Source of the DNA: an uncultured Gammaproteobacteria bacterium
GTDB taxonomy: Bacteria > Pseudomonadota > Gammaproteobacteria > Pseudomonadales > Pseudohongiellaceae
Assembly (NCBI GenBank): GCA_913048385.1
Contig: CAJWVZ010000002.1
Coordinates: forward strand, 124,001-188,000
DNA: 64,000 bases
Direction of reading: 5' to 3'
Positions within the stretch are counted from its first letter, which is position 1. Every line of letters begins with the position of its first letter. The notes below the pieces were generated by a model. It was given only the letters and a program-made list of their open reading frames with translations. It had not been told where the DNA came from and searched no databases. A program made the position numbers and the translations under genes. Below are positions 62,338 to 64,000 of the stretch, piece after piece.

Positions 62338-62511
62338 ATGGCTAACAAACCAAAAAAAGAAGCTGTTGCAAGTAGCAAAGAGGATTTGGCGTCTCAAGTA
62401 GAAGAATTTTTAAAAAACGGCGGTAAAGTGCAACAAATTCCATCCGGAGTGAGTGGGCAGACTACGACTAGCGGGCCTCGTCAAATTGTTCTAAGCCACA
62501 AAACTAGCTGA
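62338..62511 (+). CDS. Small SutA-like protein (57 aa) with EEFLxxGGKVQQI motif
   Basis: MANKPKKEAVASSKEDLASQVEEFLKNGGKVQQIPSGVSGQTTTSGPRQIVLSHKTS; charged N-terminus then FLKNGGKVQ as in SutA-type proteins. Too short for the ORF track. Confidence 0.65.
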   Translation: MANKPKKEAVASSKEDLASQVEEFLKNGGKVQQIPSGVSGQTTTSGPRQIVLSHKTS

Positions 62512-62895: not shown

Positions 62896-62924
62896 TTTAC
62901 ACCTCGCATGCACTACGCTATAAA
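62896..62924 (+). promoter_or_regulatory. Predicted sigma70-type promoter
   Basis: TTTACA - 17 nt - TATAAA; 5/6 match in each hexamer, optimal spacing; expected start near 62931. Confidence 0.65.
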
Positions 62925-62930
62925 TACTAC

Positions 62931-63223
62931 AGGTCTTAGCCACTGCTTTTCACAGGGGAAAGTTTTGGCTGTCTTCAATACCCTGAAATTAAAAAGGAGG
63001 TGATCCCATCAATAATCAATCATTTAAGGGAGCCTTTGGTTACTCGCTATAAAAGAGCCTCATTATTCCCCAGCCTAAGCTGTTCGAAAAATGAAATTGC
63101 TTCATAGATCGGGAAACAAAAGAGTTGAATCCTTGAGAAAGAGACAACTTAGCTTCCGAAAACAGTTCTCTGTTCGACGAAACGTTCCGTTAGCGCAATA
63201 TTGCTCCTAACGGAACGTTTTTT
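62931..63223 (+). ncRNA. Candidate small RNA or short-peptide transcript of about 290 nt, unknown family
   Basis: Bounded by the promoter above and a strong intrinsic terminator; no convincing ORF; 5' hairpin AGCCA..CTTTTC-acagg-GGAAAG..TGGCT at 62938-62970; AAGGAGGTGATCC at 62994-63006. Confidence 0.5.
63181..63223 (+). terminator. Intrinsic (Rho-independent) terminator
   Basis: AACGTTCCGTTAG ... CTAACGGAACGTT 13-bp perfect stem followed by TTTTTT. Confidence 0.9.
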
Positions 63224-63279: not shown

Positions 63280-64000
63280 ATGCTTGAAGAAAGCTCATTG
63301 AAGGTTTCCATGGAGCTTCTGCGCGCTCGCGCGGAATCTGGCCTCAAAACATTATACGTCGCCGACGCGCTTGCAATGCCTGTGCATTGGTACTATCGCC
63401 CTTACGATATTCAATTACAATTCCCCGACGGTATCACTGATTTCGAAGCCGCTCCCAAATATCATCCCTCTTCAATTATGTCTTTGCATTCAACAAATGG
63501 GGGCGGTCGGCGGTCCAAAGGATCTAATAATGGAAAAGAAATTATTGGCGACGTTATTCTCAAGGGCAAAAGAGACAAGTGGGGCGTACCAAATACTCAC
63601 TATCACCACGGAATGCCTGCGGGCTCAAATACGCTGAATGCTCATTGTGCACGGGCAGTGACCCGCGCCTTAACAACAAACTCAGCAAGGTATTCACAAA
63701 GTGCTTTTTTCGAATCTTATATCTCACTCCTCACTTCCGATCCTCCTGAGCATCCCGACACCTATGCGGAATCCTATCACAGAGCATTTTTCGCAAATCT
63801 CGAGAATGGAGTGCCGCCCAATAAATGCGGTTCAAAAACTCATGATACAGCCTCCATTGGGGGTTTGGTTACACTTGCTCCGATTGTTATTTCTGAGCGG
63901 TTTGCGGGCACAAGCTTAGAAACAACAAAGAAAATATGTATGGAACATCTTTGGCTAACCCATCCTGACAAAGCATTGTCCCAAATTTCTGATGACTACG
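63280..64000 (+). CDS. ADP-ribosylglycohydrolase family protein, 3' truncated by window edge
   Basis: MLEESSLKVSMELLRARAESGLKTLYVADALAMPVHWYYRPYDIQLQFPDG...THYHHGMPAGSNTLNAHCARAV...HDTASIGGLVTLAPIVIS; open reading frame to position 64000, absent from ORF track because no stop in window. Confidence 0.82.
   Translation, partial: MLEESSLKVSMELLRARAESGLKTLYVADALAMPVHWYYRPYDIQLQFPDGITDFEAAPKYHPSSIMSLHSTNGGGRRSKGSNNGKEIIGDVILKGKRDKWGVPNTHYHHGMPAGSNTLNAHCARAVTRALTTNSARYSQSAFFESYISLLTSDPPEHPDTYAESYHRAFFANLENGVPPNKCGSKTHDTASIGGLVTLAPIVISERFAGTSLETTKKICMEHLWLTHPDKALSQISDDY

Follow-up and report, generated by a model that had tools for sequence, protein, structure and literature searches.

A conserved structured RNA that may serve as a micro-mRNA with an extended Shine-Dalgarno sequence and a non-AUG start

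Introduction

Does the DNA at positions 62896-63223, between a DUF6164 gene and an ADP-ribosylglycohydrolase gene of an uncultured gammaproteobacterium (Pseudohongiellaceae), specify a small non-coding RNA, or does it carry a message of its own? The window, by which we mean the whole 64,000-nucleotide stretch of contig CAJWVZ010000002.1 that was analysed, had earlier been read from its letters alone. This sequence-only reading saw an orphan transcription unit with no convincing ORF and proposed an undescribed small RNA (sRNA) or, alternatively, a leader or short-ORF transcript. What looks like a non-coding RNA may turn out to be a micro-mRNA, and genes this short with AUC, AUU or AUA starts escape gene finders and most small-protein surveys.

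Results

The unit begins with a sigma-70-like promoter on the plus strand (62896-62924), read from the sequence, in which TTTACA (62896-62901) is separated by a 17-nt spacer from TATAAA (62919-62924), and from which transcription would start near 62931. It ends in an intrinsic terminator (63182-63223, plus strand), recognized by sequence and folding, with a 13-bp stem and a T6 run. Both elements, together with a 5' stem-loop, lie where the sequence-only reading had placed them, and matches to PF19661 (E 3e-31) and PF03747 (E 9e-18) bear out the DUF6164-like gene upstream and the ADP-ribosylglycohydrolase gene downstream that it had named. A consensus scanner lists neither promoter nor terminator, because its rules accept only a T as the final base of the -10 element and no loop longer than 8. 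Relatives in the genus keep a promoter like the window's (CTTTAC..TRTTATATAA), and the terminator downstream of the RNA is also kept in relatives. The short string CCCATACGT (L003-L030), which follows the 3' hairpin and precedes the terminator, is conserved in most relatives from both of the families in which we find the RNA and is lost in the window. Just 5' of the DUF6164 gene, the window also encodes a 57-aa protein (62338-62511) with a SutA RNA-polymerase-binding domain (PF20661, E 2e-13).

In an Rfam 15 search of the window and its relatives, a check that the sequence-only reading had proposed, no known family is matched: the best scores are 18-22 bits against thresholds of 39-62, and tmRNA, 6S RNA, RNase P RNA, SRP RNA, CsrB and riboswitches all fall short. 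Literature searches returned nothing on this RNA, and a plasmid collection searched for it gave no match. A DNA search of 59 genomes finds the RNA in 31 of the 37 genomes of the same genus, one copy in each, and in none of the 22 outside it; since the genomes without a match were only partly checked by covariance models, a missing match there is not proof of absence. DNA identity among the genus relatives is concentrated on 62979-63044. Covariance model R1 extends the distribution beyond this family, to four genera of a second one in the order. In that second family 35 of 101 genomes carry one copy each. The model gives no match in two sister genera of the window's own family. The genus genomes without a match include the near-complete G006, G018, G021, G022, G030 and G033, and all sampled members of sister genera g24 and g25 are likewise negative, which suggests loss or divergence of the RNA in these lineages.

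Within the genus, 31 of 33 distinct loci have the RNA 3' of the DUF6164 gene. In the other family (L039-L069), the RNA comes after a pyridoxamine-phosphate-oxidase-like gene and is followed by a convergent LysR-type (MetR-like) gene. Because the neighbourhoods differ between the genus and the other family, the RNA forms an independent unit and does not belong to a neighbouring gene. The genes on its 3' side are mostly convergent (in the second family, 29 loci have a LysR-type gene here, and 23 loci of the genus have a different minus-strand gene) and differ from clade to clade. The second family's neighbourhood is stable and differs from that of the genus. The MetR-like neighbour and the SutA domain suggest that these genomes belong to the Gammaproteobacteria.

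The predicted transcript (62931-63223) folds with -81.4 kcal/mol (z = -3.6), and none of 200 shuffles is as stable. Alignment A1 holds genus sequences aligned on their letters alone. The structure has 34 pairs in it, a pseudoknot included, and pairing is intact in 95.1% of cells; 18 of the 34 have changed on both sides, which none of 500 shuffles reaches, and sliding the partner by 1-3 columns drops pairing to 57% or less. The 5' stem-loop, P1 (about 62939-62969, plus strand), is supported by covariation and folding and consists of helices 1 and 2, which are paired in 100% and 96.5% of cells, with 8 of 9 pairs changed on both sides. Its loop carries CAGGG (62953-62957), predicted from the alignment to form a pseudoknot with CCCTG (62981-62985). 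This pairing (62953-62985, plus strand) holds in 99.3% of cells in the genus and is almost invariant, hence its weak covariation; without being prompted, RNAalifold arrives at it both in the other family and in a broad set. Further downstream, covariation defines a 3' domain (63028-63157, plus strand), closed by helix 4 between GGGAGC (63028-63033) and GCTTCC (63152-63157), which is 98.9% paired; its inner helices 5 and 6 covary, with 10 of 14 pairs changed on both sides. The lack of an Rfam match, the strong covariation and the conservation across two families together support an undescribed, independently transcribed, structured RNA, as the sequence-only reading had supposed.

Between the pseudoknot and the 3' domain lies an extended Shine-Dalgarno sequence, AAGGAGGTGATCC (62994-63006, plus strand), a 13-nt complement of the 16S rRNA 3' tail. 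It is the reverse complement of GGATCACCTCCTT, the tail in two RNA-carrying genomes whose 16S genes Rfam confirms as SSU rRNA; we took the tail from relatives because the window's draft genome lacks a 16S end. Of 70 homologues, 63 have a complement of 13 nt or more. The complementarity is nearly invariant and reaches well beyond GGAGG, as at initiation sites of the infC type.

At a normal spacing from this site, a micro-ORF opens with ATC (63008-63052, plus strand: ATC AAT AAT CAA TCA TTT AAG GGA GCC TTT GGT TAC TCG CTA TAA), predicted to encode (M)NNQSFKGAFGYSL. Its frame, length, start and stop are conserved, and its end overlaps the 3' domain. In all relatives, ATC taken as the start opens one frame, with the consensus (I/M)-N-S-Q-S-I-(K/R)-G-A-S followed by variable residues and a stop. 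The start is ATC in 58 of 64 sequences, ATT in four, ATA in one and GTT in one (L065), so that a near-cognate ATC, ATT or ATA is conserved across species in 63 of 64 and ATG never occurs. The first stop falls at codon 14-16 in 61 of 63 sequences (31 of 33 in the genus, the other two, L025 and L033, having longer frames, and 30 of 30 in the other family). None of 2000 column shuffles in either clade gives as high a fraction (maxima 0.82 and 0.80); like the other shuffle controls, this test ignores relatedness. The stop columns belong to the gene's most variable ones, and TAG (35), TAA (24) and TGA (4) are all used. In frame +2 a stop comes already at codon 2, and frame +1 lacks a shared end point; a 3-nt insertion in L042 is in frame and keeps the ORF. 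Synonymous changes make up 41% in the proposed frame against 27% expected, 25% against 23% in frame +1 and 41% against 34% in frame +2, and since frame +2 also shows a modest excess this substitution test is weak by itself. RNA-level constraint coincides with codons 8-12, and variation early in the ORF falls on codon positions 4.3 and 6.3 and on codon 7. An overlapping GTG frame (63000) was rejected, as its end is not conserved and a one-base insertion breaks it in L042.

The claim that the unit has no convincing ORF thus gives way to a conserved frame of 14 codons, which has a 13-nt Shine-Dalgarno sequence and a non-AUG start and had been missed because a search for ATG, GTG and TTG ORFs is blind to it. 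The sequence-only reading had also held that a conserved translated ORF in homologues would speak against an sRNA. The conserved part of that is largely borne out at the level of sequence, where frame, start and stop are kept, and for this reason a plain sRNA is not supported as the main reading; its alternative of a short-ORF transcript fits the conserved frame best.

The micro-peptide is below the length usable in profile searches, and distant relatives were found at the RNA level. A second covariance model returns low-scoring matches with the same leader and Shine-Dalgarno sequence, followed at the same distance by an ATG and a frame of 11-14 codons. The model was built without these sequences, and a 14-codon ORF recurs in four to five of them although ORF length is no part of the score. 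The ATG-started peptides are MSNECINGASGGTC, MSNDSMCAASGATC, MSNRCIIGAPGGTC, MSHRCIIGFSGGAC, MSNGCIEVLTG and MSDGCIEVLTG; a further match, L071, starts with ATT and reads ISIYLKSGSGGFAF. Calculated per genome, in sets that reach 369 genomes, their E-values lie between 4e-6 and 8e-3 and, coming from home-made models, are rough; the scores are modest, so homology is likely but not certain. Our initial idea of a non-coding anti-16S RNA without an ORF was dropped once these ATG-bearing relatives revealed the frame. A third model gave matches in other families (E 0.002-0.04, 369 genomes) at about the number expected by chance, and they look unrelated where checked; the translation of one, L096, reads like 2-isopropylmalate synthase (...INSQSGKGGVAY...).

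Folding predictions suggest that the site may be exposed in stages. When the RNAs are cut after codon 11, GGAGG is predicted to pair with ORF codons with a mean probability of 0.94 in the genus and 0.83 in the other family. The full-length RNAs draw GGGAGC and the codons after it into the 3' helices, which lowers this probability to 0.05. The window has GCC UUU at these codons, and they are predicted to pair with AAAGG instead. The full-length Shine-Dalgarno sequence is still mostly paired elsewhere (unpaired 0.2, with energies that omit the pseudoknot). We hypothesize a folding switch in which the G-A-S codons would bury the Shine-Dalgarno sequence until the 3' hairpin reclaims them; it stays a hypothesis because the pseudoknot does not enter the energies and because pairing persists over part of the freed site.

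Discussion

The promoter and terminator anatomy, the covarying structure, the 16S complementarity, the conserved frame and the avoidance of AUG are all properties of the sequences themselves. What they point to, with moderate confidence, is a stand-alone structured micro-mRNA in which translation of a micro-peptide is deliberately limited at initiation. The RNA would be transcribed from its own promoter and end at its own terminator, and its pseudoknotted 5' leader would present the extended Shine-Dalgarno sequence, which could pair with almost all of the single-stranded 16S tail. This pairing would bring a weak near-cognate start codon, AUC, AUU or AUA, into the P site of the ribosome. During RNA synthesis, codons 8-10 (GGA GCC UCC, with UUU in the window) could bury the Shine-Dalgarno sequence, and the 3' domain, once transcribed, would draw them into its own helices and free it. 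A peptide of 13-15 residues would then be produced, at a low rate that presumably varies with conditions. From strong recruitment combined with a weak start, we propose that output is set by start-codon proofreading of the IF3 type and by ribosome supply; translation, the switch and any role of the peptide are likewise what we infer. A bolder and less probable extension is that the gene senses translation initiation itself: with an ideal Shine-Dalgarno sequence and a poor start, the 14-codon product or the occupancy of 30S subunits would report the IF3 level or the supply of free 30S, and the RNA switch would time exposure.

The main rival is a decoy, in which the RNA holds 30S subunits or free 16S tails through its 13-nt complement, the weak start stalls the complex and the peptide is a by-product. 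The near invariance of that complement, the systematic absence of AUG from 64 sequences and the structured, independently transcribed nature of the RNA all suit it. For a decoy alone a reading frame would be superfluous, so the preservation of frame, length and stop argues against this as the sole function, and the distant relatives use ATG; we consider the decoy rather doubtful. It is unlikely that the RNA acts chiefly by base-pairing of the conserved single-stranded AAUAGUCARUCUAUU with target mRNAs, translation being minor. Nucleotide conservation is high just 3' of the Shine-Dalgarno sequence, an independent transcript with an ORF is present at sequence level, with its own promoter and terminator, and small ORFs are known in other sRNAs, such as VcdP in VcdRP (PMC8672173), but variation in that segment sits on codon positions 4.3 and 6.3 and on codon 7, and the frame is kept.

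A leader peptide or attenuator controlling the downstream gene would account for a short ORF, competing hairpins and a terminator, and in the window a same-strand gene does follow at 63280. The leader that the sequence-only reading had allowed for is nevertheless very improbable, as the terminator follows the RNA, and the downstream genes lie mostly on the opposite strand and differ between clades, with no conserved co-directional gene among them. Chance assembly of promoter-like and terminator-like strings in an intergenic stretch can be set aside almost entirely: counts of these patterns in the region are not above those in shuffles, and as bare patterns they are at chance level, but conservation, covariation and the frame evidence refute it.

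The micro-mRNA reading gains from comparison with known systems. A near-perfect ribosome-binding site with an AUC, AUU or AUA start is otherwise known from few tightly regulated genes. In S. aureus, an extended Shine-Dalgarno sequence supports such starts in infC (AUA), cvfC1 (AUU) and ccpN (AUA), with a yield of about 10% of AUG that depends on the medium in one case (PMC13009471). Our RNA shares with these sites a very long 16S-tail complement close to the start codon and a near-cognate start kept across species, and the expected yield would be low and adjustable. The infC-type sites belong to ordinary genes (IF3, a 61-aa protein and CcpN), whereas here a small structured transcript of its own carries the ORF and no other; the ORF has 13-15 codons, and AUC is its most frequent start. 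VcdRP is a dual-function sRNA encoding the 29-aa VcdP (PMC8672173), and like it our unit is a small independent transcript with a promoter, a terminator and a short ORF. Our ORF is half as long with a non-AUG start, and a pseudoknotted leader lies directly 5' of its Shine-Dalgarno sequence; it is not known to have a base-pairing target.

H-type pseudoknot translational riboswitches place a pseudoknot and competing helices just before and over the Shine-Dalgarno sequence. This arrangement recurs here, but the RNA matches no Rfam riboswitch family, has no known ligand and would control a micro-ORF rather than a metabolic gene. A conserved family tied to a structured RNA and to the longest possible natural Shine-Dalgarno sequence would add a stand-alone class to the few known non-AUG sites, and would offer a natural system in which to study how expression depends on start-codon proofreading and 30S supply.

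The peptide motif NSQSIKG resembles NSQSGKGG of type-II LeuA (2-isopropylmalate synthase) in carriers of the RNA. This is probably a coincidence, to which DNA and function add nothing more. The likeness (L100-L103, L096) extends to the DNA level as AATAGTCAGTC.
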